This document shows, one piece after another, positions 2 to 64,000 of a stretch of 64,000 bases of DNA. The position numbers and the translations under genes are program-made. The DNA lies in NCBI GenBank assembly GCA_029718625.1, contig CM056395.1, forward strand, positions 19,432,309-19,496,308, read 5' to 3'. Position 1 is the first letter of the stretch, and the number at the start of each line of letters is the position of its first letter. The stretch is from Synaphobranchus kaupii (taxonomy: Eukaryota > Chordata > Actinopteri > Anguilliformes > Synaphobranchidae). The notes beneath the pieces are model-generated. The model was not told the DNA's origin. It did not search any database and saw nothing but the letters and a program-made list of their open reading frames with translations.

Positions 2-3000
2 ACTTCAGCCTCTACAACAGCATCTCCCACTACAACTGCAGCACCCACTACAAATTCAGCCCCCACTACAACAGCAGCACACTCTACAACTGCAGCACCA
101 ACAACAACTGCAGCCCACACTACAACAGCAGCCCCCACTACAACTGCAGCTCCCACTACAACTGCAGCCCACACTACAACTGCAGCCCCCACTACAACTG
201 CAGCTCCCATTACAACTGCAGCCCCCACTACAACTACAGCCCCCACTACAACAGCAGCCTCTACTAAAACAGCATCTCCCGCTGCAACTGCAGCTCCCAC
301 TACAACTGCAGCACCAACAACAACTGCAGCCCCAAGTACAACCGCAGCTCCCACTACAACCACATCACCCACTACAACCACCACTACAACTGCTGTCCAT
401 ACTACAACTTCAGCCCCCACTACAACAGCAGCCTCTACTACAACAGCATCTCCCACTACAACTGCAGCACCCACTACAACTGCAGCACCAACTACAACTT
501 CAGCCCCCACTACGAATTCAGCACCCACTACAACAGCAGCACCCACTACAACTGCAGCACCAACAACAACTGCAGCACCAACTACAACTTCAGCCCCCGC
601 CTCAACTGCAGCTCCCACTACATCAGCAGCCTCCACTACAACTACAGCGCACACTGCAACAGCAGCCGCCACTACAACTGCAACCCTCACTACAACTGCA
701 GCTCACACTACAACTGCAGCACCAACAACAACTGCAGTCCCAACTACAACTTCAGCCTCTACAACAGCATCTCCCACTACAACAGCATCTCCCACTACAA
801 CTGCAGCACCCACTACAACTGCAGAACCAACTACAACAGCAGCTCCCACTACGAATTCAGCCCCCACTACAACAGCAGCACCCTCTACAACTGCAGCACC
901 AATAACTGCAGCCCCAACTACAACTTCAGCCCCCGCCTCAACTGCAGCTCCCACTACATCAGCAGCCTCCACTACAACTACAGCACACACTGCAACAGCA
1001 GCCGCCACTACAACTGCAACCCTGACTACAACTGCAGCTCCCACTACGAATTCAGCACACACTACAACAGCAGCACCCTCTACAACTGCAGCACCAACAA
1101 CAACTGCAGCACCAACTACAACTTCAGCCCCCGCCTCAACTGCAGCTCCCACTACATCAGCAGCCTCCACTACAACTACAGCGCACACTGCAACAGCAGC
1201 CGCCACTACAACTGCAACCCTCACTACAACTGCAGCTCACACTACAACTGCAGCACCAACAACAACTACAGTCCCAACTACAAATTCAGCCTCTACAACA
1301 GCATCTCCCACTACAACTGCAGCACCCACTACAACTGCAGAACCAACTACAACTGCAGCTCCCACTACGAATTCAGCCCCCACTACAACAGCAGCACCCT
1401 CTACAACTGCAGCACCAACAACAACTGCAGCCCCAACTACAACTTCAGCCCCCGCCTCAACTGCATCTCCCACTACATCAGCAGCCTCCACTACAACTGC
1501 AGCCCACACTACAACAGCAGCACCCACTACAACTGCAGCTCCCACTACAACTGCAGCCCTCACTACAACTGCAGCCCCCACTACAACTACAGCCCCCACT
1601 ACAACAGCAGCCTCCACTAAAACAGCATCTCCCGCTGCAACTGCAGCTCACACTACAACTGCAGCACAAACAACAACTGCAGTCCCAACTACAACTTCAG
1701 CCTCTACAACAGCATCTCCCACTACAACTGCAGCACCAACAACAACTGCAGTCCCAACTACAACTTCAGCCTCTACAACAGCATCTTCCACTACAACTGC
1801 AGCACCCACTACAACTGCAGAACCAACTACAACTGCAGCTCCCACAACAAATTCAGCCCCCACTACAACAGCAGCACCCTCTACAACTGCAGCACAAACA
1901 ACAACTGCAGCCCCAACTACAACTTCAGCCCCCGCCTCAACTGCAGCTCCCACAACAACTGCAGCCCACACTACAACTGCAGCCCCCACTACAACTGCAG
2001 CTCCCATTACAACTGCAGCCCCCACTACAACTACAGCCCCCACTACAACAGCAGAACCAACTACAACAGCAGCTCCCACTACGAATTCAGCCCCCACTAC
2101 AACAGCAGCACCCTCTACAACTGCAGCACCAATAACTGCAGCCCCAACTACAACTTCAGCCCCCGCCTCAACTGCAGCTCCCACTACATCAGCAGCCTCC
2201 ACTACAACTACAGCGCACACTGCAACAGCAGCCGCCACTACAACTGCAACCCTCACTACAACTGCAGCTCCCACTACGAATTCAGCACACACTACAACAG
2301 CAGCACCCTCTACAACTGCAGCACCAACAACAACTGCAGCACCAACTACAACTTCAGCCCCTGCCTCAACTGCAGCTCCCACTACATCAGCAGCCTCCAC
2401 TACAACTACAGCGCACACTGCAACAGCAGCCGCCACTACAACTGCAACCCTCACTACAACTGCAGCTCGCACTACAACTGCAGCACCAACAACAACTGCA
2501 GTCCCAACTACAAATTCAGCCTCTACAACAGCATCTCCCACTACAACTGCAGCACCCACTACAACTGCAGAACCAACTACAACTGCAGCTCCCACTACGA
2601 ATTCAGCCCCCACTACAACAGCAGCACCCTCTACAACTGCAGCACCAACAACAACTGCAGCCCCAACTACAACTTCAGCCCCCGCCTCAACTGCATCTCC
2701 CACTACATCAGCAGCCTCCACTACAACTGCAGCCCACACTACAACAGCAGCACCCACTACAACTGCAGCTCCCACTACAACTGCAGCCCTCACTACAACT
2801 GCAGCCCCCACTACAACTACAGCCCCCACTACAACAGCAGCCTCCACTAAAACAGCATCTCCCGCTGCAACTGCAGCTCACACTACAACTGCAGCACAAA
2901 CAACAACTGCAGTCCCAACTACAACTTCAGCCTCTACAACAGCATCTCCCACTACAACTGCAGCACCAACAACAACTGCAGTCCCAACTACAACTTCAGC

Positions 3001-6000
3001 CTCTACAACAGCATCTCCCACTACAACTGCAGCACCCACTACAACTGCAGAACCAACTACAACTGCAGCTCCCACAACAAATTCAGCCCCCACTACAACA
3101 GCAGCACCCTCTACAACTGCAGCACAAACAACAACTGCAGCCCCAACTACAACTTCAGCCCCCGCCTCAACTGCAGCTCCCACTACAACTGCAGCCCACA
3201 CTACAACTGCAGCCCCCACTACAACTGCAGCTCCCATTACAACTGCAGCCCCCACTACAACTACAGCCCCCACTACAACAGCAGCCTCTACTAAAACAGC
3301 ATCTCCCGCTGCAACTGCAGCTCCCACTACAACTGCAGCACCAACAACAACTGCATCCCCAACTACAACGGCAGCCCTCACTACAACTGCAGCCCCCACT
3401 ACAACTACAGCCCCCACTACAACTACAGCCCCCACTACAACAGCAGCCTCCACTAAAACAGCATCTCCCGCTGCAACTGCAGCTCACACTACAACTGCAG
3501 CACAAACAACAACTGCAGTCCCAACTACAACTTCAGCCTCTACAACAGCATCTCCCACTACAACTGCAGCACCAACAACAACTGCAGTCCCAACTACAAC
3601 TTCAGCCTCTACAACAGCATCTCCCACTACAACTGCAGCACCCACTACAACTGCAGAACCAACTACAACTGCAGCTCCCACTACAAATTCAGCCCCCACT
3701 ACAACAGCAGCACCCTCTACAACTGCAGCACCAACAACAACTGCAGCCCCAACTACAACTTCAGCCCCCGCCTCAACTGCAGCTCCCACTACAACTGCAG
3801 CCCACACTACAACTGCAGCCCCCGCCTCAACTGCAGCTCCCACTACATCAGCAGCCTCCACTACAACTACAGCGCACACTGCAACAGCAGCCGCCACTAC
3901 AACTGCAACCCTCACTACAACTGCAGCTCCCACTACGAATTCAGCACACACTACAACAGCAGCCTCTACTAAAACAGCATCTCCCGCTGCAACTGCAGCT
4001 CCCACTACAACTGCAGCACCAACAACAACTGCATCCCCAACTACAACGGCAGCCCTCACTACAACTGCAGCCCCCACTACAACTACAGCCCCCACTACAA
4101 CAGCAGCCTCCACTAAAACAGCATCTCCCGCTGCAACTGCAGCTCACACTACAACTGCAGCACAAACAACAACTGCAGCCCCAACTACAACTTCAGCCCC
4201 CGCCTCAACTGCAGCTCCCACAACAACTGCAGCCCACACTACAACTGCAGCCCCCACTACAACTGCAGCTCCCATTACAACTGCAGCCCCCACTACAACT
4301 ACAGCCCCCACTACAACAGCAGAACCAACTACAACAGCAGCTCCCACTACGAATTCAGCCCCCACTACAACAGCAGCACCCTCTACAACTGCAGCACCAA
4401 TAACTGCAGCCCCAACTACAACTTCAGCCCCCGCCTCAACTGCAGCTCCCACTACATCAGCAGCCTCCACTACAACTACAGCGCACACTGCAACAGCAGC
4501 CGCCACTACAACTGCAACCCTCACTACAACTGCAGCTCCCACTACGAATTCAGCACACACTACAACAGCAGCACCCTCTACAACTGCAGCACCAACAACA
4601 ACTGCAGCACCAACTACAACTTCAGCCCCTGCCTCAACTGCAGCTCCCACTACATCAGCAGCCTCCACTACAACTACAGCGCACACTGCAACAGCAGCCG
4701 CCACTACAACTGCAACCCTCACTACAACTGCAGCTCGCACTACAACTGCAGCACCAACAACAACTGCAGTCCCAACTACAAATTCAGCCTCTACAACAGC
4801 ATCTCCCACTACAACTGCAGCACCCACTACAACTGCAGAACCAACTACAACTGCAGCTCCCACTACGAATTCAGCCCCCACTACAACAGCAGCACCCTCT
4901 ACAACTGCAGCACCAACAACAACTGCAGCCCCAACTACAACTTCAGCCCCCGCCTCAACTGCATCTCCCACTACATCAGCAGCCTCCACTACAACTGCAG
5001 CCCACACTACAACAGCAGCACCCACTACAACTGCAGCTCCCACTACAACTGCAGCCCTCACTACAACTGCAGCCCCCACTACAACTACAGCCCCCACTAC
5101 AACAGCAGCCTCCACTAAAACAGCATCTCCCGCTGCAACTGCAGCTCACACTACAACTGCAGCACCAACAACAACTGCAGTCCCAACTACAACTTCAGCC
5201 TCTACAACAGCATCTCCCACTACAACTGCAGCACCCACTACAACTGCAGAACCAACTACAACTGCAGCTCCCACAACAAATTCAGCCCCCACTACAACAG
5301 CAGCACCCTCTACAACTGCAGCACAAACAACAACTGCAGCCCCAACTACAACTTCAGCCCCCGCCTCAACTGCAGCTCCCACTACAACTGCAGCCCACAC
5401 TACAACTGCAGCCCCCACTACAACTGCAGCTCCCATTACAACTGCAGCCCCCACTACAACTACAGCCCCCACTACAACAGCAGCCTCTACTAAAACAGCA
5501 TCTCCCGCTGCAACTGCAGCTCCCACTACAACTGCAGCACCAACAACAACTGCATCCCCAACTACAACGGCAGCCCTCACTACAACTGCAGCCCCCACTA
5601 CAACTACAGCCCCCACTACAACAGCAGCCTCCACTAAAACAGCATCTCCCGCTGCAACTGCAGCTCACACTACAACTGCAGCACAAACAACAACTGCAGT
5701 CCCAACTACAACTTCAGCCTCTACAACAGCATCTCCCACTACAACTGCAGCACCAACAACAACTGCAGTCCCAACTACAACTTCAGCCTCTACAACAGCA
5801 TCTCCCACTACAACTGCAGCACCCACTACAACTGCAGAACCAACTACAACTGCAGCTCCCACTACAAATTCAGCCCCCACTACAACAGCAGCACCCTCTA
5901 CAACTGCAGCACCAACAACAACTGCAGCCCCAACTACAACTTCAGCCCCCGCCTCAACTGCAGCTCCCACTACAACTGCAGCCCACACTACAACTGCAGC

Positions 6001-9000
6001 CCCCACTACAACTACAGCCCCCACTACAACAGCAGCCTCCACTAAAACAGCATCTCCCGCTGCAACTGCAGCTCACACTACAACTGCAGCACAAACAACA
6101 ACTGCAGTCCCAACTACAACTTCAGCCTCTACAACAGCATCTCCCACTACAACTGCAGCACCCACTACGAATTCAGCCCCCACTACAACAGCAGCACACT
6201 CTACAACTGCAGCACCAACAACAACTGCAGCCAACACTACAACAGCAGCCCCCACTACAACTGCAGCTCCCACTACAACTGCAGCCCACACTACAACTGC
6301 AGCCCCCACTACAACTGCAGCTCCCATTACAACTGCAGCCCCCACTACAACTACAGCCCCCACTACAACAGCAGCCTCTACTAAAACAGCATCTCCCGCT
6401 GCAACTGCAGCTCCCACTACAACTGCAGCACCAACAACAACTGCAGCCCCAACTACAACTGCAGCCCTCACTACAACTGCAGCCCTCACTACAACTGCAG
6501 CCCCCACTACAACTGCAGCTCCCATTACAACAGCAGCACCAAGTACAACTGCATCCCCAATTACAACTGCAGCTCCCACTACATCAGCAGCCTCCACTAC
6601 AACTGCAGCCCCCACTAAAACAGCCCCTACTACAACTGCAGCCCCAACAAAAATTGCAGCTCCCACTACACCCAAAGCTCCAAGTGGAACTGCAGCCCCA
6701 AGTACAACCGCAGCTCCCACTACAACCACATCACCCACTACAACCACCACTACAACTGCTGTCCATACTACAACTTCAGCCCCCACTACAACAGCAGCCT
6801 CTTCTACAACAGCATCTCCCACTACAACTGCAGCACCCACTACAACTGCAGCACCAACTACAACTTCAGCCCCCACTACGAATTCAGCACCCACTACAAC
6901 AGCAGCACCCACTACAACTGCAGCACCAACAACAACTGCAGCACCAACTACAACTTCAGCCCCCGCCTCAACTGCAGCTCCCACTACATCAGCAGCCTCC
7001 ACTACAACTACAGCGCACACTGCAACAGCAGCCGCCACTACAACTGCAACCCTCACTACAACTGCAGCTCACACTACAACTGCAGCACCAACAACAACTG
7101 CAGTCCCAACTACAACTTCAGCCTCTACAACAGCATCTCCCACTACAACAGCATCTCCCACTACAACTGCAGCACCCACTACAACTGCAGAACCAACTAC
7201 AACAGCAGCTCCCACTACGAATTCAGCCCCCACTACAACAGCAGCACCCTCTACAACTGCAGCACCAATAACTGCAGCCCCAACTACAACTTCAGCCCCC
7301 GCCTCAACTGCAGCTCCCACTACATCAGCAGCCTCCACTACAACTACAGCGCACACTGCAACAGCAGCCGCCACTACAACTGCAACCCTCACTACAACTG
7401 CAGCTCCCACTACGAATTCAGCACACACTACAACAGCAGCACCCTCTACAACTGCAGCACCAACAACAACTGCAGCACCAACTACAACTTCAGCCCCCGC
7501 CTCAACTGCAGCTCTCACTACATCAGCAGCCTCCACTACAACTACAGCGCACACTGCAACAGCAGCCGCCACTACAACTGCAACCCTCACTACAACTGCA
7601 GCTCACACTACAACTGCAGCACCAACAACAACTGCAGTCCCAACTACAAATTCAGCCTCTACAACAGCATCTCCCACTACAACTGCAGCACCCACTACAA
7701 CTGCAGAACCAACTACAACTGCAGCTCCCACTACGAATTCAGCCCCCACTACAACAGCAGCACCCTCTACAACTGCAGCACCAACAACAACTGCAGCCCC
7801 AACTACAACTTCAGCCCCCGCCTCAACTGCATCTCCCACTACATCAGCAGCCTCCACTACAACTGCAGCCCACACTACAACAGCAGCACCCACTACAACT
7901 GCAGCTCCCACTACAACTGCAGCCCTCACTACAACTGCAGCCCCCACTACAACTACAGCCCCCACTACAACAGCAGCCTCCACTAAAACAGCATCTCCCG
8001 CTGCAACTGCAGCTCACACTACAACTGCAGCACAAACAACAACTGCAGTCCCAACTACAACTTCAGCCTCTACAACAGCATCTCCCACTACAACTGCAGC
8101 ACCAACAACAACTGCAGTCCCAACTACAACTTCAGCCTCTACAACAGCATCTCCCACTACAACTGCAGCACCCACTACAACTGCAGAACCAACTACAACT
8201 GCAGCTCCCACAACAAATTCAGCCCCCACTACAACAGCAGCACCCTCTACAACTGCAGCACAAACAACAACTGCAGCCCCAACTACAACTTCAGCCCCCG
8301 CCTCAACTGCAGCTCCCACTACAACTGCAGCCCACACTACAACTGCAGCCCCCACTACAACTGCAGCTCCCATTACAACTGCAGCCCCCACTACAACTAC
8401 AGCCCCCACTACAACAGCAGCCTCTACTAAAACAGCATCTCCCGCTGCAACTGCAGCTCCCACTACAACTGCAGCACCAACAACAACTGCATCCCCAACT
8501 ACAACGGCAGCCCTCACTACAACTGCAGCCCCCACTACAACTACAGCCCCCACTACAACAGCAGCCTCCACTAAAACAGCATCTCCCGCTGCAACTGCAG
8601 CTCACACTACAACTGCAGCACAAACAACAACTGCAGTCCCAACTACAACTTCAGCCTCTACAACAGCATCTCCCACTACAACTGCAGCACCAACAACAAC
8701 TGCAGTCCCAACTACAACTTCAGCCTCTACAACAGCATCTCCCACTACAACTGCAGCACCCACTACAACTGCAGAACCAACTACAACTGCAGCTCCCACT
8801 ACAAATTCAGCCCCCACTACAACAGCAGCACCCTCTACAACTGCAGCACCAACAACAACTGCAGCCCCAACTACAACTTCAGCCCCCGCCTCAACTGCAG
8901 CTCCCACTACAACTGCAGCCCACACTACAACTGCAGCCCCCACTACAACTACAGCCCCCACTACAACAGCAGCCTCCACTAAAACAGCATCTCCCGCTGC

Positions 9001-12000
9001 AACTGCAGCTCACACTACAACTGCAGCACAAACAACAACTGCAGTCCCAACTACAACTTCAGCCTCTACAACAGCATCTCCCACTACAACTGCAGAACCA
9101 ACAACAACTGCAGTCCCAACTACAACTTCAGCCTCTACAACAGCATCTCCCACTACAACTGCAGCACCCACTACGAATTCAGCCCCCACTACAACAGCAG
9201 CACACTCTACAACTGCAGCACCAACAACAACTGCAGCCCACACTACAACAGCAGCCCCCACTACAACTGCAGCTCCCACTACAACTGCAGCCCACACTAC
9301 AACTGCAGCCCCCACTACAACTGCAGCTCCCATTACAACTGCAGCCCCCACTACAACTACAGCCCCCACTACAACAGCAGCCTCTACTAAAACAGCATCA
9401 CCCGCTGCAACTGCAGCTCCCACTACAACTGCAGCACCAACAACAACTGCAGCCCCAACTACAACTGCAGCCCTCACTACAACTGCAGCCCTCACTACAA
9501 CTGCAGCCCCCACTACAACTGCAGCTCCCATTACAACAGCAGCACCAAGTACAACTGCATCCCCAATTACAACTGCAGCTCCCACTACATCAGCAGCCTC
9601 CACTACAACTGCAGCCCCCACTAAAACAGCCCCTACTACAACTGCAGCCCCAACAAAAATTGCAGCTCCCACTACACCCAAAGCTCCAAGTGGAACTGCA
9701 GCCCCAAGTACAACCGCAGCTCCCACTACAACCACATCACCCACTACAACCACCACTACAACTGCTGTCCATACTACAACTTCAGCCCCCACTACAACAG
9801 CAGCCTCTTCTACAACAGCATCTCCCACTACAACTGCAGCACCCACTACAACTGCAGCACCAACTACAACTTCAGCCCCCACTACGAATTCAGCACCCAC
9901 TACAACAGCAGCACCCACTACAACTGCAGCACCAACAACAACTGCAGCACCAACTACAACTTCAGCCCCCGCCTCAACTGCAGCTCCCACTACATCAGCA
10001 GCCTCCACTACAACTACAGCGCACACTGCAACAGCAGCCGCCACTACAACTGCAACCCTCACTACAACTGCAGCTCACACTACAACTGCAGCACCAACAA
10101 CAACTGCAGTCCCAACTACAACTTCAGCCTCTACAACAGCATCTCCCACTACAACAGCATCTCCCACTACAACTGCAGCACCCACTACAACTGCAGAACC
10201 AACTACAACAGCAGCTCCCACTACGAATTCAGCCCCCACTACAACAGCAGCACCCTCTACAACTGCAGCACCAATAACTGCAGCCCCAACTACAACTTCA
10301 GCCCCCGCCTCAACTGCAGCTCCCACTACATCAGCAGCCTCCACTACAACTACAGCGCACACTGCAACAGCAGCCGCCACTACAACTGCAACCCTCACTA
10401 CAACTGCAGCTCCCACTACGAATTCAGCACACACTACAACAGCAGCACCCTCTACAACTGCAGCACCAACAACAACTGCAGCACCAACTACAACTTCAGC
10501 CCCCGCCTCAACTGCAGCTCTCACTACATCAGCAGCCTCCACTACAACTACAGCGCACACTGCAACAGCAGCCGCCACTACAACTGCAACCCTCACTACA
10601 ACTGCAGCTCACACTACAACTGCAGCACCAACAACAACTGCAGTCCCAACTACAAATTCAGCCTCTACAACAGCATCTCCCACTACAACTGCAGCACCCA
10701 CTACAACTGCAGAACCAACTACAACTGCAGCTCCCACTACGAATTCAGCCCCCACTACAACAGCAGCACCCTCTACAACTGCAGCACCAACAACAACTGC
10801 AGCCCCAACTACAACTTCAGCCCCCGCCTCAACTGCATCTCCCACTACATCAGCAGCCTCCACTACAACAGCAGCCCCCACTACAACTGCAGCTCCCACT
10901 ACAACTGCAGCCCACACTACAACTGCAGCCCCCACTACAACTGCAGCTCCCATTACAACTGCAGCCCCCACTACAACTACAGCCCCCACTACAACAGCAG
11001 CCTCTACTAAAACAGCATCTCCCGCTGCAACTGCAGCTCCCACTACAACTGCAGCACCAACAACAACTGCAGCCCCAACTACAACTGCAGCCCTCACTAC
11101 AACTGCAGCCCTCACTACAACTGCAGCCCCCACTACAACTGCAGCTCCCATTACAACAGCAGCACCAAGTACAACTGCATCCCCAATTACAACTGCAGCT
11201 CCCACTACATCAGCAGCCTCCACTACAACTGCAGCCCCCACTAAAACAGCCCCTACTACAACTGCAGCCCCAACAAAAATTGCAGCTCCCACTACACCCA
11301 AAGCTCCAAGTGGAACTGCAGCCCCAAGTACAACCGCAGCTCCCACTACAACCACATCACCCACTACAACCACCACTACAACTGCTGTCCATACTACAAC
11401 TTCAGCCCCCACTACAACAGCAGCCTCTTCTACAACAGCATCTCCCACTACAACTGCAGCACCCACTACAACTGCAGCACCAACTACAACTTCAGCCCCC
11501 ACTACGAATTCAGCACCCACTACAACAGCAGCACCCACTACAACTGCAGCACCAACAACAACTGCAGCACCAACTACAACTTCAGCCCCCGCCTCAACTG
11601 CAGCTCCCACTACATCAGCAGCCTCCACTACAACTACAGCGCACACTGCAACAGCAGCCGCCACTACAACTGCAACCCTCACTACAACTGCAGCTCACAC
11701 TACAACTGCAGCACCAACAACAACTGCAGTCCCAACTACAACTTCAGCCTCTACAACAGCATCTCCCACTACAACAGCATCTCCCACTACAACTGCAGCA
11801 CCCACTACAACTGCAGAACCAACTACAACAGCAGCTCCCACTACGAATTCAGCCCCCACTACAACAGCAGCACCCTCTACAACTGCAGCACCAATAACTG
11901 CAGCCCCAACTACAACTTCAGCCCCCGCCTCAACTGCAGCTCCCACTACATCAGCAGCCTCCACTACAACTACAGCGCACACTGCAACAGCAGCCGCCAC

Positions 12001-54000: not shown

Positions 54001-57000
54001 AGCTCCCACTACAACTGCAGCCCACACTACAACAGCAGCCTCTACTAAAACAGCATCTCCCTCTGCAACTGCAGCTCCCACTACAACTGCAGCACCAACA
54101 ACAACTGCAGCCCCAACTACAACTGCAGCCCTCACTACAACTGCAGCCCTCACTACAACTGCAGCCTCCACTACAACTGCAGCTCCCATTACAACAGCAG
54201 CACCAAGTAGAACTGCATCCCCAACTACAACTGCAGCTCCCCCTACATCAGCAGCCTCCACTACAACTGCAGACCCCACTAAAACAGCCCCTACTACAAC
54301 TGCAGCCCCAACAAAAATCGCAGCTCCCACTACACCTGAAGCTCCAAGTGGAACTGCAGCGCCAAGTACAACTGCAGCTCCCACTACAACCACATCACCC
54401 ACTACAACCACCACTACAACTGCTGTCCATACTACAACTCCAGCACCCACTACAACAGCAGCCTCTACTACAACAGCATCTCCCACTACAACTGCAGCAC
54501 CCACTACAACTGCAGAACCAACTACAACAGCAGCTCCCACTACGAATTCAGCCCCCACTACAACAGCAGCACCCTCTACAACTGCAGCACCAACCACAAC
54601 TGCAGCCCCAACTACAACTTCAGCCCCCGCGTCAACTGCAGCTCCCACTACATCAGCAGCCTCCACTACAACTGCAGCCCACACTACAACAGCAGCCCCC
54701 ACTACAACTGCAACCCTCACTACAACTGCAGCTCCAACTACGAATTCAGCCCCCACTACAACAGCAGCACCCTCTACAACTGCAGCACCAACAACAACTG
54801 CAGCCCCCACTACAAATGCAACCCAAACTACAACTGCAGTTCCCACTACAACTGCAGCCCTCACTACAACTGCAGCCCCCACTACAACTGCAGCTTCCAT
54901 TACAACTGCAGCCCCCACTACAACTACAGCCCCCACTACAATAGCAGCCTCCACTAAAACAGCATCTCCTGCTGCAACTGCAGCTCACACTACAACTGCA
55001 GCACAAACAACAACTGCAGTCCCAACTACAACTTCAGCCTCTACAACAGCATCTCCCACTACAACTGCAGCACCAACAACAACTGCAGTCCCAACTACAA
55101 CTTCAGCATCTACAACAGCATCTCCCACTACAACTGCAGCACCCACTACAACTGCAGAACCAACTACAACTGCAGCTCCCACTACAAATTCAGCCCCCAC
55201 TACAACAGCAGCGCCCTCTACAACTGCAGCACCAACAACAACTTCAGCCCCCGCCTCAACTGTAGCTCTCACTACATCAGCAGCCTCCACTACAACTGCA
55301 GCCCACACTACAACAGCAGCCCCCACTACAACTGCAACCCTCACTATAACTGCAGCTCCAACTACGAATTCAGCCCCCACTACAACAGCAGCCCCCACTA
55401 CAACTGCAGCTCCCACTACAACTGCAGCCCTCACTACAACTGCAGTTCCCACTACAACTGCAGCTCCCATTACAACTGCAGCCCCCAGTACAACTACAGC
55501 CCCCACTACAACAGCAGCCTCCACTAATACAGCATCTCCCGCTGCAACTGCAGCTCACACTACAACTGCAGCACCAACAACAACTGCAGTCCCAACTACA
55601 ACTTCAGCCTCTACAACAGCATTTCCCACTACAACTGCAGCACCCACTACAACTGCAGAACCAACTACAACTGCAGCACCCACTACAACTGCAGAACCAA
55701 CTACAAATGCAGCTCCCACTACGAATTCAGCCCCCACTACAACAGCAGCACCCTCTACAACTGCAGCACCAACAACAACTGCAGCCCTAACTACAACTTC
55801 AGCCCCCGCCTCAACTGTATCTCCCACTACATCAGCAGCCTCCACTACAACTGCAGCCCACACTACAACAGCAGCCCCCACTACAACTGCAGCTCCCACT
55901 ACAACAGCAGCCCCCACTACAACTGCAGCTCCCACTACAACTGCAGCCCTCACTACAACTGCAGCCCCCACTACAACTTCAGCCCCCGCCTCAACTGTAT
56001 CTCCCACTACATCAGCAGCCCCCACTACAACTGCAGCCCCCACTACAACTGCTGCACCCATTACAACAGCAGCCCCCACTACAACTACAACCCTCACTAC
56101 AACTGCAGCTCCCACTACAACTGCAGCCCACACTACAACTGCAGCTCCCATTACAACAGCAGCCCCCACTACAACTACAGCCCCCACTACAACAGCAGCC
56201 TCTACTAAAACAGCATCTCCCTCTGCAACTGCAGCTCCCACTACAACTGCAGCACCAACAACAACTGCAGCCCCAACTACAACTGCAGCCCTCACTACAA
56301 CTGCAGCCCTCACTACAACTGCAGCCTCCACTACAACTGCAGCTCCCATTACAACAGCAGCACCAAGTAGAACTGCATCCCCAACTACAACTGCAGCTCC
56401 CCCTACATCAGCAGCCTCCACTACAACTGCAGCCCCCACTAAAACAGCCCCTACTACAACTGCAGCCCCAACAAAAATCGCAGCTCCCACTACACCTGAA
56501 GCTCCAAGTGGAACTGCAGCGCCAAGTACAACTGCAGCTCCCACTACAACCACATCACCCACTACAACCACCACTACAACTGCTGTCCATACTACAACTC
56601 CAGCACCCACTACAACAGCAGCCTCTACTACAACAGCATCTCCCACTACAACTGCAGCACCCACTACAACTGCAGAACCAACTACAACAGCAGCTCCCAC
56701 TACGAATTCAGCCCCCACTACAACAGCAGCACCCTGTACAACTGCAGCACCAACCACAACTGCAGCCCCAACTACAACTTCAGCCCCCGCGTCAACTGCA
56801 GCTCCCACTACATCAGCAGCCTCCACTACAACTGCAGCCCACACTACAACTGCAGCTCCAACTACGAATTCAGCCCCCACTACAACAGCAGCACCCTCTA
56901 CAACTGCAGCACCAACAACAACTGCAGCCCCCACTACAAATGCAACCCAAACTACAACTGCAGTTCCCACTACAACTGCAGCCCTCACTACAACTGCAGC

Positions 57001-60000
57001 CCCCACTACAACTGCAGCTTCCATTACAACTGCAGCCCCCACTACAACTACAGCCCCCACTACAACAGCAGCCTCCACTAAAACAGCATCTCCTGCTGCA
57101 ACTGCAGCTCACACTACAACTGCAGCACAAACAACAACTGCAGTCCCAACTACAACTTCAGCCTCTACAACAGCATCTCCCACTACAACTGCAGCACCAA
57201 CAACAACTGCAGTCCCAACTACAACTTCAGCATCTACAACAGCATCTCCCACTACAACTGCAGCACCCACTACAACTGCAGAACCAACTACAACTGCAGC
57301 TCCCACTACAAATTCAGCCCCCACTACAACAGCAGCGCCCTCTACAACTGCAGCACCAACAACAACTTCAGCCCCCGCCTCAACTGTAGCTCTCACTACA
57401 TCAGCAGCCTCCACTACAACTGCAGCCCACACTACAACAGCAGCCCCCACTACAACTGCAACCCTCACTATAACTGCAGCTCCAACTACGAATTCAGCCC
57501 CCACTACAACAGCAGCCCCCAGTACAACTGCAGCTCCCACTAGAACTGCAACCCTCACTACAACTGCAGCTCCAACTACGAATTCAGCCCCCACTACAAC
57601 AGCAGCACCCTCTACAACTGCAGCACCAACAACAACTGCAGCCCCCACTACAAATGCAACCCAAACTACAACTGCAGTTCCCACTACAACTGCAGCCCTC
57701 ACTACAACTGCAGCCCCCACTACAACTGCAGCTTCCATTACAACTGCAGCCCCCACTACAACTACAGCCCCCACTACAACAGCAGCCTCCACTAAAACAG
57801 CATCTCCTGCTGCAACTGCAGCTCACACTACAACTGCAGCACAAACAACAACTGCAGTCCCAACTACAACTTCAGCCTCTACAACAGCATCTCCCACTAC
57901 AACTGCAGCACCAACAACAACTGCAGTCCCAACTACAACTTCAGCATCTACAACAGCATCTCCCACTACAACTGCAGCACCCACTACAACTGCAGAGCCA
58001 ACTACAACTGCAGCTCCCACTACAAATTCAGCCCCCACTACAACAGCAGCGCCCTCTACAACGGCAGCACCAACAACAACTTCAGCCCCCGCCTCAACTG
58101 TAGCTCTCACTACATCAGCAGCCTCCACTACAACTGCAGCCCACACTACAACAGCAGCCCCCACTACAACTGCAACCCTCACTATAACTGCAGCTCCAAC
58201 TACGAATTCAGCCCCCACTACAACAGCAGCCCCCACTACAACTGCAGCTCCCACTACAACTGCAGCCCTCACTACAACTGCAGCCCCCACTACAACTGCA
58301 GCTCCCATTACAACTGAAGCCCCCAGTACAACTACAGCCCCCACTACAACAGCAGCCTCCACTAAAACAGCATCTCCCGCTGCAACTGCAGCTCACACTA
58401 CAACTGCAGCACCAACAACAACTGCAGTCCCAACTACAACTTCAGCCTCTACAACAGCATTTCCCACTACAACTGCAGCACCCACTACAACTGCAGAACC
58501 AACTACAAATGCAGCTCCCACTACGAATTCAGCCCCCACTACAACAGCAGCACCCTCTACAACTGCAGCACCAACAACAACTGCAGCCCCAACTACAACT
58601 TCAGCCCCCGCCTCAACTGTATCTCCCACTACATCAGCAGCCTCCACTACAACTGCAGCCCACACTACAACAGCAGCCCCCACTACAACTGCAGCTCCCA
58701 CTACAACTGCAGCCCTCACTACAACTGCAGCCCCCACTACAACTGCAGCCCCCACTACAACTGCTGCACCCATTACAAAAGCAGCACCAAGTAGAACTGC
58801 ATCCCCAACTACAACTGCAGCTCCCCCTACATCAGCAGCCTCCACTACAACTGCAGCCCCCACTAAAACAGCCCCTACTACAACTGCAGCCCCAACAAAA
58901 ATCGCAGCTCCCACTACACCTGAAGCTCCAAGTGGAACTGCAGCGCCAAGTACAACTGCAGCTCCCACTACAACCACATCACCCACTACAACCACCACTA
59001 CAACTGCTGTCCATACTACAACTCCAGCACCCACTACAACAGCAGCCTCTACTACAACAGCATCTCCCACTACAACTGCAGCACCCACTACAACTGCAGA
59101 ACCAACTACAACAGCAGCTCCCACTACGAATTCAGCCCCCACTACAACAGCAGCACCCTGTACAACTGCAGCACCAACCACAACTGCAGCCCCAACTACA
59201 ACTTCAGCCCCCGCATCAACTGCAGCTCCCACTACATCAGCAGCCTCCACTACAACTGCAGCCCACACTACAACTGCAGCTCCAACTACGAATTCAGCCC
59301 CCACTACAACAGCAGCACCCTCTACAACTGCAGCACCAACAACAACTGCAGCCCCCACTACAAATGCAACCCAAACTACAACTGCAGTTCCCACTACAAC
59401 TGCAGCCCTCACTACAACTGCAGCCCCCACTACAACTGCAGCTTCCATTACAACTGCAGCCCCCACTACAACTACAGCCCCCACTACAACAGCAGCCTCC
59501 ACTAAAACAGCATCTCCTGCTGCAACTGCAGCTCACACTACAACTGCAGCACAAACAACAACTGCAGTCCCAACTACAACTTCAGCCTCTACAACAGCAT
59601 CTCCCACTACAACTGCAGCACCAACAACAACTGCAGTCCCAACTACAACTTCAGCATCTACAACAGCATCTCCCACTACAACTGCAGCACCCACTACAAC
59701 TGCAGAACCAACTACAACTGCAGCTCCCACTACAAATTCAGCCCCCACTACAACAGCAGCGCCCTCTACAACTGCAGCACCAACAACAACCTCAGCCCCC
59801 GCCTCAACTGTAGCTCTCACTACATCAGCAGCCTCCACTACAACTGCAGCCCACACTACAACAGCAGCCCCCACTCCAACTGCAACCCTCACTATAACTG
59901 CAGCTCCAACTACGAATTCAGCCCCCACTACAACAGCAGCCCCCAGTACAACTGCAGCTCCCACTACAACTGCAACCCTCACTACAACTGCAGCTCCAAC

Positions 60001-63000
60001 TACGAATTCAGCCCCCACTACAACAGCAGCACCCTCTACAACTGCAGCACCAACAACAACTGCAGCCCCCACTACAAATGCAACCCAAACTACAACTGCA
60101 GTTCCCACTACAACTGCAGCCCTCACTACAACTGCAGCCCCCACTACAACTGCAGCTTCCATTACAACTGCAGCCCCCACTACAACTACAGCCCCCACTA
60201 CAACAGCAGCCTCCACTAAAACAGCATCTCCTGCTGCAACTGCAGCTCACACTACAACTGCAGCACAAACAACAACTGCAGTCCCAACTACAACTTCAGC
60301 CTCTACAACAGCATCTCCCACTACAACTGCAGCACCAACAACAACTGCAGTCCCAACTACAACTTCAGCATCTACAACAGCATCTCCCACTACAACTGCA
60401 GCACCCACTACAACTGCAGAGCCAACTACAACTGCAGCTCCCACTACAAATTCAGCCCCCACTACAACAGCAGCGCCCTCTACAACGGCAGCACCAACAA
60501 CAACTTCAGCCCCCGCCTCAACTGTAGCTCTCACTACATCAGCAGCCTCCACTACAACTGCAGCCCACACTACAACAGCAGCCCCCACTACAACTGCAAC
60601 CCTCACTATAACTGCAGCTCCAACTACGAATTCAGCCCCCACTACAACAGCAGCCCCCAGTACAACTGCAGCTCCCACTACAACTGCAACCCTCACTACA
60701 ACTGCAGCTCCAACTACGAATTCAGCCCCCACTACAACAGCAGCACCCTCTACAACTGCAGCACCAACAACAACTGCAGCCCCCACTACAAATGCAACCC
60801 AAACTACAACTGCAGTTCCCACTACAACTGCAGCCCTCACTACAACTGCAGCCCCCACTACAACTGCAGCTTCCATTACAACTGCAGCCCCCACTACAAC
60901 TACAGCCCCCACTACAACAGCAGCCTCCACTAAAACAGCATCTCCTGCTGCAACTGCAGCTCACACTACAACTGCAGCACAAACAACAACTGCAGTCCCA
61001 ACTACAACTTCAGCCTCTACAACAGCATCTCCCACTACAACTGCAGCACCAACAACAACTGCAGTCCCAACTACAACTTCAGCATCTACAACAGCATCTC
61101 CCACTACAACTGCAGCACCCACTACAACTGCAGAGCCAACTACAACTGCAGCTCCCACTACAAATTCAGCCCCCACTACAACAGCAGCGCCCTCTACAAC
61201 GGCAGCACCAACAACAACTTCAGCCCCCGCCTCAACTGTAGCTCTCACTACATCAGCAGCCTCCACTACAACTGCAGCCCACACTACAACAGCAGCCCCC
61301 ACTACAACTGCAACCCTCACTATAACTGCAGCTCCAACTACGAATTCAGCCCCCACTACAACAGCAGCCCCCACTACAACTGCAGCTCCCACTACAACTG
61401 CAGCCCTCACTACAACTGCAGCCCCCACTACAACTGCAGCTCCCATTACAACTGAAGCCCCCAGTACAACTACAGCCCCCACTACAACAGCAGCCTCCAC
61501 TAAAACAGCATCTCCCGCTGCAACTGCAGCTCACACTACAACTGCAGCACCAACAACAACTGCAGTCCCAACTACAACTTCAGCCTCTACAACAGCATTT
61601 CCCACTACAACTGCAGCACCCACTACAACTGCAGAACCAACTACAAATGCAGCTCCCACTACGAATTCAGCCCCCACTACAACAGCAGCACCCTCTACAA
61701 CTGCAGCACCAACAACAACTGCAGCCCCAACTACAACTTCAGCCCCCGCCTCAACTGTATCTCCCACTACATCAGCAGCCTCCACTACAACTGCAGCCCA
61801 CACTACAACAGCAGCCCCCACTACAACTGCAGCTCCCACTACAACTGCAGCCCTCACTACAACTGCAGCCCCCACTACAACTGCAGCCCCCACTACAACT
61901 GCTGCACCCATTACAACAGCAGCACCAAGTAGAACTGCATCCCCAACTACAACTGCAGCTCCCCCTACATCAGCAGCCTCCACTACAACTGCAGCCCCCA
62001 CTAAAACAGCCCCTACTACAACTGCAGCCCCAACAAAAATCGCAGCTCCCACTACACCTGAAGCTCCAAGTGGAACTGCAGCGCCAAGTACAACTGCAGC
62101 TCCCACTACAACCACATCACCCACTACAACCACCACTACAACTGCTGTCCATACTACAACTCCAGCACCCACTACAACAGCAGCCTCTACTACAACAGCA
62201 TCTCCCACTACAACTGCAGCACCCACTACAACTGCAGAACCAACTACAACAGCAGCTCCCACTACGAATTCAGCCCCCACTACAACAGCAGCACCCTGTA
62301 CAACTGCAGCACCAACCACAACTGCAGCCCCAACTACAACTTCAGCCCCCGCGTCAACTGCAGCTCCCACTACATCAGCAGCCTCCACTACAACTGCAGC
62401 CCACACTACAACTGCAGCTCCAACTACGAATTCAGCCCCCACTACAACAGCAGCACCCTCTACAACTGCAGCACCAACAACAACTGCAGCCCCCACTACA
62501 AATGCAACCCAAACTACAACTGCAGTTCCCACTACAACTGCAGCCCTCACTACAACTGCAGCCCCCACTACAACTGCAGCTTCCATTACAACTGCAGCCC
62601 CCACTACAACTACAGCCCCCACTACAACAGCAGCCTCCACTAAAACAGCATCTCCTGCTGCAACTGCAGCTCACACTACAACTGCAGCACAAACAACAAC
62701 TGCAGTCCCAACTACAACTTCAGCCTCTACAACAGCATCTCCCACTACAACTGCAGCACCAACAACAACTGCAGTCCCAACTACAACTTCAGCATCTACA
62801 ACAGCATCTCCCACTACAACTGCAGCACCCACTACAACTGCAGAACCAACTAAAACTGCAGCTCCCACTACAAATTCAGCCCCCACTACAACAGCAGCGC
62901 CCTCTACAACTGCAGCACCAACAACAACTTCAGCCCCCGCCTCAACTGTAGCTCTCACTACATCAGCAGCCTCCACTACAACTGCAGCCCACACTACAAC

Positions 63001-64000
63001 AGCAGCCCCCACTACAACTGCAACCCTCACTATAACTGCAGCTCCAACTACGAATTCAGCCCCCACTACAACAGCAGCCCCCAGTACAACTGCAGCTCCC
63101 ACTACAACTGCAACCCTCACTACAACTGCAGCTCCAACTACGAATTCAGCCCCCACTACAACAGCAGCACCCTCTACAACTGCAGCACCAACAACAACTG
63201 CAGCCCCCACTACAAATGCAACCCAAACTACAACTGCAGTTCCCACTACAACTGCACCCATTACAACCGCAGCCCCCACTACAACTACAGCCCCCACTAC
63301 AACAGCAGCCTCTACTAAAACAGCATCACCCGCTGCAACTGCAGCTCCCACTACAACTGCAGCACCAACAACAACTGCAGCCCCAACTACAACTGCAGCC
63401 CTCACGACAACTGCAGCCCTAACTACAACTGCAGCCCCCACGACAACTGCAGCTCCCATTACAACAGCAGCACCAAGTACAACTGCATCCCCAACTACAA
63501 CTGCAGCTCCCACTACATCAGCAGCCTCCACTACAACTGCAGCCCCCACTAAAACAGCCCCTACTACAACTGCAGCCACAACAAAAATTGCAGCTCCCAC
63601 TACACCTGAAGCTCCAAGTGGAACTGCAGCCCCAAGTACAACCGCAGCTCCCACTACAACTGCAGCCCTCACTACAACTGCAGCCCCCACTACAACTGCA
63701 GCTCCCATTACAACTGCAGCCCCCAGTACAACTACAGCCCCCACTACAACAGCAGCCTCCACTAAAACAGCATCTCCCGCTGCAACTGCAGCTCACACTA
63801 CAACTGCAGCACCAACAACAACTGCAGTCCCAACTACAACTTCAGCCTCTACAACAGCATTTCCCACTACAACTGCAGCACCCACTACAACTGCAGAACC
63901 AACTACAAATGCAGCTCCCACTACAAATTCAGCCCCCACTACAACAGCAGCACCCTCTACAACTGCAGCACCAACAACAACTGCAGCCCCAACTACAACT
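2..64000 (+). CDS. Giant mucin-like Thr/Ala/Pro-repeat protein, internal part (both ends outside window)
   Basis: The frame beginning at base 2 is open across the window, giving 21,333 codons of imperfect TTTAAP repeats. In every line I sampled the phase is unchanged. The stop-like triplets I met are out of frame (ACT-AAA, ACT-ATA, AGT-AGA, CCA-ATA, GTA-GCT, CCT-GAA). The other two + frames are broken repeatedly: one at each ACT-AAA, the other at CCA-ATA, ACT-ATA and GTA-GCT. No start, signal peptide or membrane segment is present. In-frame Met occurs only at codons about 11,505 and 16,980, both internal. Composition is dominated by Thr, Ala and Pro, with scattered Ser, Glu, Lys, His, Leu, Val and Asn, four Cys, and no Tyr or Trp noticed. 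Clustered Thr with Pro is the hallmark of mucin-type O-glycosylated domains, so a secreted or surface gel-forming or coat protein is inferred. The unglycosylated mass of this part would be roughly 1.9 MDa. A non-coding minisatellite is the main alternative. No family can be assigned. Confidence 0.8.
118..1488 (+). repeat. Unit A, copy A0 (1,371 bp, internally deleted)
   Basis: This is the left-most copy of the 1,620-bp A unit. It aligns with A1 at an offset of 6,117 up to about base 334, and at 6,366 after that. The missing 249 bp (83 codons) removes the P-K-A-P-S-G marker found in the other A copies. Bases 1-117 align with 6,118-6,234, the tail of the preceding B-type unit. The coding frame continues through the deletion. 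Confidence 0.85.
821..2050 (+). repeat. 1,230-bp tandem duplication, first copy
   Basis: Bases 821-2,050 match 2,051-3,280 almost perfectly and the two copies abut directly. The right end of each copy is followed by different sequence (GCAGAACCA after the first, GCAGCCTCT after the second). The period is 410 codons, so the frame is kept. The copy spans the right part of A0 and the left part of B0. Confidence 0.85.
1489..6234 (+). repeat. Expanded B-type region B0 (about 4.7 kb instead of 1,386 bp)
   Basis: B0 lies between A0 and A1, where a single 1,386-bp B unit would be expected. It is enlarged by the 1,230-bp duplication at 2,051-3,280, by a third partial copy at about 4,148-5,230, and by an 18-bp unit duplication near 3,415. 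It lacks the K/E-A-P-S-G marker. All internal changes keep the TTTAAP frame. Confidence 0.7.
2051..3280 (+). repeat. 1,230-bp tandem duplication, second copy
   Basis: This is the direct repeat of 821-2,050. Removing it would restore collinearity with 8,417 onward: 3,281 aligns with 8,417, which equals the 6,366 offset minus 1,230. It is therefore an insertion relative to the other B units. A further partial copy lies at about 4,148-5,230, matching 1,880-2,962 at an offset of 2,268. Confidence 0.85.
6235..7854 (+). repeat. Unit A, copy A1 (1,620 bp)
   Basis: This is a complete 1,620-bp higher-order unit (540 codons). It begins CACTACAACAGCAGCCCC and ends in GCAGCCTC. It carries the marker motif (GTGGAAC at 6,684) and the seven-Thr run followed by A-V-H. 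It is near-identical to A2, A3 and A5, with the same ends. Confidence 0.85.
7855..9240 (+). repeat. Unit B, copy B1 (1,386 bp)
   Basis: This 462-codon unit begins CACTACAACTGCAGCCCAC and has no P-K-A-P-S-G marker. It matches B2 at an offset of 4,626 and the left part of B3. It includes ACAACGGCAGCCCTC and two TKTA units. Confidence 0.85.
9241..10860 (+). repeat. Unit A, copy A2 (1,620 bp)
   Basis: A2 matches A1 at an offset of 3,006 and is directly followed by another A unit (A3), so A is tandemly duplicated here with no B between. The marker is at 9,690. Confidence 0.87.
10861..12480 (+). repeat. Unit A, copy A3 (1,620 bp)
   Basis: A3 is an exact-length tandem partner of A2. Both end in CATCAGCAGCCTC, at 10,860 and 12,480. 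It also starts the second round of a 4,626-bp super-unit (A B A at 6,235-10,860, repeated from 10,861). The marker is at 11,310. Confidence 0.87.
12481..13866 (+). repeat. Unit B, copy B2 (1,386 bp)
   Basis: B2 aligns with B1 at an offset of 4,626 with no net length change. A local difference at about 13,621 (CCCACTACA where B1 has CCCGCTGCA) replaces P-A-A with P-T-T. The frame is kept. Confidence 0.85.
13867..15372 (+). repeat. Unit A, copy A4 (truncated, 36-bp internal deletion)
   Basis: A4 matches A2 from its start. It lacks 36 bp (12 codons, the TLTTTAAHTTTA-type segment) near 14,660 and then diverges near 15,372. The marker is at 14,316. The in-frame loss looks like slippage between neighbouring 18-bp units. 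Confidence 0.8.
15373..17094 (+). repeat. Spacer module E1 plus a B-type tail
   Basis: Bases from about 15,240 to 16,440 match about 19,503-20,690 at an offset of 4,263 and carry a marker at 16,218. The following stretch up to 17,094 matches the right end of B2 at an offset of 3,228. The spacer is therefore assembled from pieces found elsewhere in the array and holds no unique sequence. Confidence 0.7.
17095..18714 (+). repeat. Unit A, copy A5 (1,620 bp)
   Basis: A5 has exactly 1,620 bp between the same boundary words as A1-A3 and matches A3 at an offset of 6,234. In the marker region it reads ATCGCATCTCCC where the other A copies read ATTGCAGCTCCC (I-A-S-P instead of I-A-A-P). The marker is at 17,544. 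Confidence 0.85.
18715..19550 (+). repeat. Unit B, copy B3 (truncated at right)
   Basis: B3 matches B2 at an offset of 6,234 up to about 19,550, then switches into the E-type module. Confidence 0.78.
19551..20690 (+). repeat. Spacer module E2
   Basis: E2 matches E1 at an offset of 4,263. It carries a marker at 20,481 in which G-T-A-A-P has become G-T-T-A-P, and it lacks the 18-bp T-T-S-P-T-T unit just downstream. A unit near 19,757 reads ACTAAAATAGCA (T-K-I-A). Confidence 0.7.
20691..22000 (+). repeat. Transitional repeat stretch between zones I and II
   Basis: This is continuous TTTAAP-type coding with A- and B-like unit order (TTTTAHTATAA, AVPTTTSAS, TKTA). I could not assign it to one of the clean higher-order copies. 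The frame is open throughout and nothing else is seen. Confidence 0.6.
22915..24780 (+). repeat. 1,866-bp sub-unit, copy 1
   Basis: This is directly adjacent to an essentially identical copy at 24,781-26,646 (622 codons each). It carries two closely spaced markers, at 23,736 and 23,913 (177 bp apart), both in the form T-T-K-A-P-S-G rather than T-P-K-A-P-S-G. Confidence 0.82.
24781..26646 (+). repeat. 1,866-bp sub-unit, copy 2
   Basis: This is the tandem partner of copy 1, with markers at 25,602 and 25,779. The right boundary is sharp: GCAGAACCA follows at 26,647, where copy 1 is followed by GCAGCCCTC. Confidence 0.82.
28013..32158 (+). repeat. 6,012-bp super-unit, second copy (4,146 bp, one 1,866-bp sub-unit fewer)
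   Basis: Bases 28,013-30,792 match 22,001-24,780 (offset 6,012), and 28,927-32,158 match 24,781-28,012 (offset 4,146). The two offsets differ by exactly 1,866, so this copy has one sub-unit (28,927-30,792) where the first has two. Markers are at 28,254, 29,748, 29,925 and 31,296. Confidence 0.8.
31969..33605 (+). repeat. 1,866-bp sub-unit, fourth (partial) copy
   Basis: This matches 28,927 onward at an offset of 3,042 and diverges near 33,605. Markers are at 32,790 and 32,967. It differs from its relatives by scattered single bases, such as ACCCCC for GCCCCC near 32,890 (A to T). Confidence 0.72.
33606..38270 (+). repeat. Zone III modules of about 1.4 kb
   Basis: Markers at 33,999, 35,442, 36,831 and 38,271 divide this stretch into modules of 1,443, 1,389 and 1,440 bp, all multiples of 3. 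The first two are clearly related, with an offset of 1,389 or 1,425 on either side of a 36-bp indel. The marker changes from P-K-A-P to P-E-A-P between 33,999 and 35,442. An in-frame ATG at 34,514 replaces the usual ACG in a TNSA unit. Confidence 0.7.
38271..44358 (+). repeat. Zone III/IV array with a 2,745-bp duplication
   Basis: About 38,270-39,520 matches about 41,015-42,265 at an offset of 2,745 bp (915 codons). Shared rare words include GCCTTCACTACA (A-F-T-T, 38,690 and 41,435) and CTCAATACA (L-N-T, Asn codons 39,281 and 42,026). Markers are at 38,271, 38,910, 40,089, 41,016, 41,655, 42,438 and 43,611. From about 38,769 the P-S-T-T-A-S-P unit becomes P-S-R-T-A-S-P. Confidence 0.68.
44359..50859 (+). 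repeat. 6,501-bp super-unit, first copy
   Basis: The left boundary word at 44,359 recurs at 50,860, exactly where this copy ends (2,167 codons). It contains markers at 44,790, 45,963, 46,692 and 48,870, the first N-A-T sequon (Asn codon at 47,159), and one Cys codon at 49,097. It also contains a private 282-bp tandem duplication. Confidence 0.78.
50081..50644 (+). repeat. 282-bp tandem duplication (two copies)
   Basis: Bases 50,081-50,362 are repeated at 50,363-50,644 (94 codons). The corresponding place in the second super-unit (from about 57,737) has only one copy: the offset drops from 7,656 to 7,374 across it. The duplication is therefore private to this copy, or was lost from the other. 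Confidence 0.8.
50860..58263 (+). repeat. 6,501-bp super-unit, second copy, enlarged
   Basis: This matches the first copy at an offset of 6,501 up to about 52,605 and at 7,656 from about 53,760. The difference of 1,155 bp is an internal duplication. It then follows 7,374 after the 282-bp difference and diverges near 58,263. An 18-bp unit (T-A-E-P-T-T) is missing near 52,615. Markers are at 51,291, 52,464, 53,619, 54,348 and 56,508. Confidence 0.77.
51470..53768 (+). repeat. 1,155-bp internal tandem duplication (approximate ends)
   Basis: Sequence from about 51,630 matches sequence from about 52,785 at an offset of 1,155 bp (385 codons). To the left of the 18-bp deletion near 52,615 the spacing is 1,173. 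Only this part of the array contains the duplication; the first super-unit has a single copy near 45,188-46,104. The ends are approximate. Confidence 0.7.
56844..59981 (+). repeat. 3,138-bp tandem duplication, first copy
   Basis: This abuts its partner at 59,982-63,119, and a third copy begins at 63,120 before breaking off near 63,256. It contains a 714-bp sub-unit (238 codons) at 56,844-57,557 and again at 59,268-59,981. The marker is at 58,932 and the Cys codon at 59,159. It overlaps the right end of the 6,501-bp family, so the two levels of duplication are nested. Confidence 0.8.
59268..61370 (+). repeat. Three tandem 714-bp units
   Basis: Units at 59,268-59,981, 59,982-60,695 and 60,696-about 61,370 are near-identical (238 codons each; the last is slightly short). 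Each holds a T-N-A-T-Q unit with an N-glycosylation sequon. Related copies lie at 56,844, 57,558, 62,406 and near 49,188. Confidence 0.8.
59982..63119 (+). repeat. 3,138-bp tandem duplication, second copy
   Basis: This is collinear with 56,844-59,981 with no net length change (1,046 codons). The marker at 62,070 and the Cys codon at 62,297 lie exactly 3,138 bp from their partners. One difference is ACAACAGCA near 61,915, where the first copy has ACAAAAGCA. Confidence 0.82.
63257..63660 (+). repeat. Chimeric block of left-type units near the right edge
   Basis: At 63,256 the third 3,138-bp copy is replaced by units typical of zones I-III: P-S-T-T-A-S-P instead of P-S-R-T-A-S-P at 63,477, GCATCACCCGCTGC as near 9,400, and ACAAAAATTGCAGC as in the A units. 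The marker at 63,618 nevertheless has the right-type Glu. From about 63,660 the sequence again matches right-type units (47,762 onward). Confidence 0.65.
63661..64000 (+). repeat. Right-edge repeat, open at window end
   Basis: This right-type array matches 47,762 onward, with CCCAGTACA (P-S-T), then TKTA, AVPTTTSAS, GCATTTCCC (A-F-P) and TNSA units. The last complete codon ends exactly at base 64,000, so the protein continues beyond the window. Confidence 0.75.

Follow-up and report, generated by a model that had tools for sequence, protein, structure and literature searches.

How far does a reading frame built from a short repeat extend in the genome of the eel Synaphobranchus kaupii, and to what kind of gene, if any, does it belong? 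The question arises from a stretch of 64,000 nucleotides, referred to here as the window (C20:19432309-19496308, with window position w at contig position 19432308 + w), in an assembly of 1,503,245,316 bases and 94 contigs. An earlier note on this DNA, made from its letters, had proposed that the + frame from base 2 is open across the whole window and past both edges, and that it encodes a mucin-like repeat. We read the window with 100 kb on each side, 14 kb at the 5' end, further pieces of 50 kb and 14.1 kb, and short samples elsewhere.

A six-frame stop scan found no stop among the 21,333 codons of the base-2 + frame (window 2..64000), in agreement with the note. The five other frames contain 185 (+1), 71 (+3), 701 (-1), 74 (-2) and 3,307 (-3) stops, so variation among the repeats does generate stops, the base-2 + frame excepted. 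When the assembly flanks were read, the frame holding the window was found to run from stop to stop over window positions -83122 to 64687 (49,270 codons), and it is therefore open beyond both edges as claimed. The translated product has a computed mass of 1.97 MDa, close to the 1.9 MDa before glycosylation that had been estimated, and it contains two Met, which bears out the remark that this residue would be nearly absent. Thr (9,434), Ala (6,007) and Pro (2,635 of the 21,333 residues), of which the product had been said to consist almost exclusively, account for 84.7% of it, rising to 92.7% with Ser (1,701). Tandem Repeats Finder reports one array over window bases 12-64000 with a period of 18, and one short overlapping row. 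The unit is a TTTAAP-like hexapeptide of 18 bp with a run of three Thr, and Thr and Ser together make up 52% of the residues in the repeat; a long Pro/Thr/Ser-rich tandem repeat domain of this kind is found in membrane-tethered SEA mucins. When the 1,100 residues at the start of the window were searched against proteins, with scoring of the 7,948 candidates that had most words in common with them, 52 matches resulted, mostly of low complexity and from many kinds of organism; four of these (P0027, P0034, P0056 and P0068) come from vertebrates and carry a Pfam SEA domain.

Because an 18-bp unit keeps its phase through every change of whole units, openness of the frame has to be read with caution, and the array might be a non-coding minisatellite whose period yields a long open frame for free. 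The unit length, the recent homogenisation of the copies and the distance of most consensus codons from a stop (more than one step) all fit that explanation, but the two other frames of the same strand hold the 185 and 71 stops given above. Over the 49,214 codons that end the repeat exon described below, 2,764 are one substitution away from a stop and none is a stop, an absence that exceeds chance, with the reservation that codons in recent copies are far from independent. Among 219 ungapped 600-bp copy pairs (88-97% identity), every offset is divisible by three but only 35 of the 219 by 18. Between copies anchored by exact 60-mers no length change is off the triplet (0 of 21; 19 of the 21 are whole units, 18 or 36), whereas in 28 alignments of the mostly non-coding flanks 68 of 85 gaps are off the triplet. 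With exons in phase on both sides of the repeat, those downstream being conserved in other fish, we consider the minisatellite very improbable.

Other measures of coding signal are less sharp. The dN/dS-like ratio over the 219 pairs, which are not independent of one another, is 0.61 in frame, as against 0.92 and 1.20 for the two shifted frames, and this is weak constraint. Third positions are the most variable in four of the six repeat codons, a result favoured by the preselection of units in which four or more of the six residues match. Synonymous changes number 3,237 against 3,091 expected when changes are placed at matched trinucleotide contexts, a null that is uninformative because trinucleotide context nearly fixes codon position in the repeat. 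In 207 global gapped alignments of array copies, 315 of 1,595 gaps are not multiples of three; we read these as paired or split alignment artefacts of a tandem repeat, a reading not provable gap by gap.

The note had suggested checking the flanks for coding sequence in phase, and exons with agreeing phases are indeed predicted on either side of the repeat. Downstream, the repeat fades in ...TTTTTAAQTTTIPRRT and is followed by a GT donor (AC|gtatgt) at window position 64581. Five further + strand exons with GT-AG sites and agreeing phases follow at window positions 64674-64828 (exon 5), 65172-65293 (exon 6), 65918-65979 (exon 7), 66167-66267 (exon 8) and 70625-70785 (exon 9), and exon 10 (70925-71017, also + strand) continues in phase to a TGA. 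With the upstream exons included, the gene model has ten exons, with GT-AG sites throughout and consistent phases. In the spliced C-terminus a SEA-like domain, some 150 residues long, is joined by a Thr-rich linker to a hydrophobic helix and a short basic tail, so that a single transmembrane helix and a short cytoplasmic tail follow the SEA-like domain, closely matching the relatives described below. Of the downstream domains that the note had suggested, the membrane anchor was therefore found, with a SEA-like domain, while von Willebrand D (VWD), cystine-knot and EGF domains were not.

A protein search with this C-terminus found 25 proteins at E 0.001 or better (best E 1.7e-194). The closest are from Conger, Aldrovandia, Anguilla and Albula, with 54-66% identity in the first nine matches; Aldrovandia and Conger belong to the Elopomorpha, which points to an elopomorph fish as the probable source of the window. 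Further relatives come from salmonids, Scleropages, Umbra, Colossoma, Dallia, Esox and Lepisosteus. One Conger protein, which has a single SEA-like domain, is 58% identical (146/251 columns) through domain, helix and tail. In an alignment of 14 proteins hand-picked from the 25 relatives FPGWALAIIIPCGI is invariant; outside that alignment, P0001 has FPGWALAIIIPIGV and the P0004 record lacks the helix. The teleost proteins with a SEA-like domain and a transmembrane helix (Conger conger P0009, Anguilla P0003, P0005 and P0012, Aldrovandia P0002 and P0006, and Salmo salar P0017) share with the gene model the C-terminal SEA-like domain, a membrane helix of the FPGWALAIIIPCGIAIIL type, the basic tail and the Thr-rich linker, and one helix is predicted in a structural model of Conger P0009. 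Anguilla rostrata P0012, whose record stops before the helix, has a similar join between repeat and SEA-like domain: the exon junction reads PRR-TMG here, and its counterpart in the annotated A. rostrata protein is PRR-IMG. Unlike our model, these proteins are 233-663 amino acids long, and several have more than one SEA-like domain. None of the 16 relatives whose sequences were inspected has a comparable array, in a search that admitted only 0.55-1.75 times the query length and in which longer or full-length records could therefore not appear. The relatives are named 'uncharacterized', 'mucin-2-like' or 'location of vulva defective 1-like', and S. salar P0017 is annotated as 'SEA domain-containing protein'; P0010, P0011, P0012 and P0013 are misnamed or partial, which suggests that annotation often fragments such genes.

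Assignment of the C-terminal domain to the SEA family is supported less directly. The domain itself has no Pfam SEA match, and one of 14 relatives scanned with Pfam has one. A GSVVV-like motif is associated with SEA autoproteolysis, and none is present in the C-terminal domain. A profile search of the PDB with alignment A1 gave one match, to a non-relative at E 0.89, and a search with the C-terminal domain alone gave two (E 0.12 and 1.2); Foldseek returned 337 matches at E 10 and none at 0.001.

Upstream of the repeat, three + strand exons with GT-AG sites and agreeing phases are predicted at 19008647-19008686 (exon 1; window -423661 to -423622), 19008822-19009015 (exon 2; -423486 to -423293) and 19009223-19009284 (exon 3; -423085 to -423024). 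They contain an ATG followed by MKGINLVIFILIF, with a 13-residue hydrophobic leader that is a candidate signal peptide, and the array starts in phase behind ...LPGSIRVTHISAPNTTTAPTKTEAP. A signal peptide upstream had been anticipated, and the candidate leader was found in phase and with consensus splice sites, together with a weak SEA domain: Pfam SEA matches residues 52-143 of the N-terminus at E 1.9e-4 and 22 bits, below the cut-off of 26.4. The N-terminal region has no relative at E 0.001 among 168 candidates in the protein database. A second copy of the leader exon, with its flanks, stands at window position 159383, before another mucin-like gene. Outside the gene model, a Tc1-type transposase ORF (Pfam HTH_Tnp_Tc3_2) lies upstream at C20:19004256-19005047, and a separate piece at 19007119-19007669 has copies of 93-95% identity downstream of the gene at window positions 75357 and 109612.

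Between these two ends lies exon 4, the repeat exon (C20:19009555-19496889, + strand; window -422753 to 64581), which begins about 423 kb upstream of the window. As modelled it is 487,335 bp long, a length divisible by three, and would provide 162,445 codons and about 15 MDa of protein. In three pieces, 229,436 of its 487,335 bases were read continuously, and the remaining 258 kb or so were sampled. The first 40,754 bases (13,584 codons, read in the SEA-exon phase) and the last 147,642 (49,214 codons, including the window) contain no stop. A compensated pair of frame changes, 95 bases apart, occurs at window -64363 to -64268 and produces no stop. In the sampled parts, all 74 samples of 81-300 bases are repeat and stop-free, and they fall in two constant phases: the 38 between 19050309 and 19185308 all share the phase of the SEA exons, and the 36 between 19189410 and 19312308 all share one other phase. 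Paired frame changes between samples may have escaped, and the constancy of phase is more telling here than the absence of stops. All 20 samples taken up to 300 kb upstream, and the first four of the next series, are repeat, the first non-repeat sample being at 19007309. These observations support the view that the window is a slice of an enormous repeat exon in what would be the gene for a fish cell-surface mucin.

The note had treated the repeat as a single exon, and this holds in part: a mucin-like exon is modelled that is, as assembled, 7.6 times the length of the window, but upstream of the window the assembly contains ten net frame changes in exon 4 as read, on a path through three phases, so that the whole exon is not one unbroken frame in this assembly. 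One change is at 19185861, four are in 19188336-19188839 and five in 19331719-19349246. They are confined to two patches of 3.0 and 17.5 kb, and elsewhere the phase is constant at every site that was read or sampled. Comparison by eye with adjacent copies shows a single C added to a run of C in seven cases, an added A in one and a loss in two. Their net phase is zero, and the first and last stretches therefore share a common frame with both ends of the gene. The four changes at C20:19188336-19188839 show a pattern like that of a poorly resolved consensus. It is also conceivable that the gene is real and this haplotype broken, with the frame changes as true mutations and the window untranslated or in a decaying allele. 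The ten changes themselves speak for this, as does the first stop after the first of them, at 19187642 in the frame of the SEA exons; if the changes were real, translation would end there after about 59,460 codons, with no anchor. Against it stand the confinement of the changes to two patches, with four of them inside about 500 bases, the added C in seven of the ten, and the net phase of zero. The 147.6 kb downstream, moreover, hold one compensated pair and no stop, a state unexpected under decay. We regard a broken haplotype as unlikely. Most likely, the ten changes are consensus errors in two badly resolved patches, as suggested by their clustering, by the prevalence of one homopolymer type and by their absence from the end stretches of 147.6 and 40.8 kb. 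A preprint on the human mucin pangenome puts forward a comparable cause for frames lost in MUC1, namely sequencing errors in GC-rich homopolymer repeats (PMC13345508).

The size of the array raises a further question about the assembly. Of 123 one-kb blocks in 184.6 kb read, 66 match another place without gaps at 99% identity or more. The longest exact repeat within these 184.6 kb spans 3,330 bp, its copies being offset by 15,186 bp. Such similarity, with the two error-rich patches, might mean that the array was inflated or mis-joined by the assembly, the true exon being a large but more ordinary mucin repeat. Usual long-read lengths are well above 3,330 bp, however, and when the 147.6-kb stretch is cut into 164 blocks of 900 bp, 90 have no earlier ungapped copy at 95% identity or better; the phase, too, is constant outside the two patches at all sites read or sampled. 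We judge an artefact of this kind to be quite unlikely. The copies suggest to us instead a young array that has expanded in kilobase pieces and in codon steps, growth that might have proceeded by unequal exchange and by slippage in steps that preserved the frame. Other arrays lie nearby. The second mucin-like gene, which lies on the same strand and shares the signal exon (MKGKNLLIFLLLFASATTT), occupies window positions 159383-164000+ (C20:19591691 onward), its mixed TTTAAP / TTTTPAP array running past 164000. Samples upstream at C20:18722309, 18732309, 18752309-18812309 and 18582309 contain more arrays of identical or related repeat, and with non-repeat DNA between some of them the locus resembles a mucin gene cluster.

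A leader, a dense Thr/Ser repeat, a SEA-like domain, a helix and a tail point to a tethered mucin, and two other classes of repeat protein were considered and set aside. A gel-forming mucin would not be expected to lack VWD and cystine-knot domains at either end, as this model does (no Pfam match at E 1 in 168 N-terminal and 235 C-terminal model residues), or to end in a membrane anchor and a stop. The repeat of antifreeze glycoproteins is the tripeptide Thr-Ala-Ala, whereas the unit here is six codons long and includes three Thr in a row, in a gene model that is membrane-anchored. In favour of the tethered mucin we count the stop-free stretches, the 74 samples, the ten exons, the C-terminal relatives, the junction shared with A. 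rostrata, the signal exon of the neighbouring paralogue, the variable third positions and a dN/dS-like ratio that is lower in frame than in the shifted frames; against it, the frame changes, the weak SEA evidence, an N-terminus without relatives, the weak constraint that a ratio of 0.61 represents, with its null, the off-triplet gaps, and the coverage of about 258 kb of the exon by samples. On balance we think it fairly likely, as a prediction from sequence, that the window lies within the central exon of a membrane-tethered SEA-type teleost mucin gene. That the 487-kb coding exon yields a single tethered mucin, with some 162,500 residues and a mass of about 15 MDa, is a more tentative proposal, to which we give somewhat less than even credence.

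Giant proteins are known from other systems. Human MUC12 is also membrane-tethered, and a single very large central exon carries its tandem repeats (PMC13345508); the likeness is one of architecture, and the 162,445 codons as assembled, or 49,214 stop-free codons read through, set the present exon apart. The giant ORF of V. archaeovorus LiM, whose predicted product of 39,678 amino acids is proposed to form an extracellular coat, is bacterial, with 42 predicted membrane helices and no mucin repeat (PMC10066038). The PKZILLA gigasynthases resemble our case as giant eukaryotic proteins found by mining genome assemblies (PMC12300183). They differ in being modular enzymes rather than repeat glycoproteins. 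No publication on the present gene was found in the mucin, giant-exon and eel-genome literature searched, with most subscription papers outside the search. Titin has about 35,000 amino acids and PKZILLA-1 about 45,000, and one bacterial protein prediction is near 85,800. The 49,214 stop-free codons alone exceed titin and PKZILLA-1, and the whole exon would exceed the 85,800 prediction too; the window exon may thus encode one of the largest known proteins. If the single-mucin proposal is true, the protein would have about four times the length of the 39,678-residue product that is the longest found in print, and about twice that of the longest prediction known to us, and if the gene is expressed, both exon and protein sizes would lie far beyond those found in print. 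Such exons fall in a blind spot, being missed by gene finding and by protein searches that are length-limited or filtered for low complexity.

In the mucin that we propose, the leader would direct the chain to the secretory pathway, O-glycans on most Thr and Ser would stiffen the repeat into a bottle-brush, and the C-terminal helix would fix the chain in the epithelial cell surface, where, judging from the tethered mucin family, it may serve as a very long protective brush. A stretched mucin measures about 0.25 nm per residue, and the stretched molecule, if the proposal is true, would be tens of micrometres long, exceeding the length of the cell that anchors it. If the gene is expressed, it becomes a question how a mature mRNA of about 490 kb is transcribed, exported and kept from decay, how a ribosome keeps its frame for hours, and how a 15-MDa chain is glycosylated and secreted.
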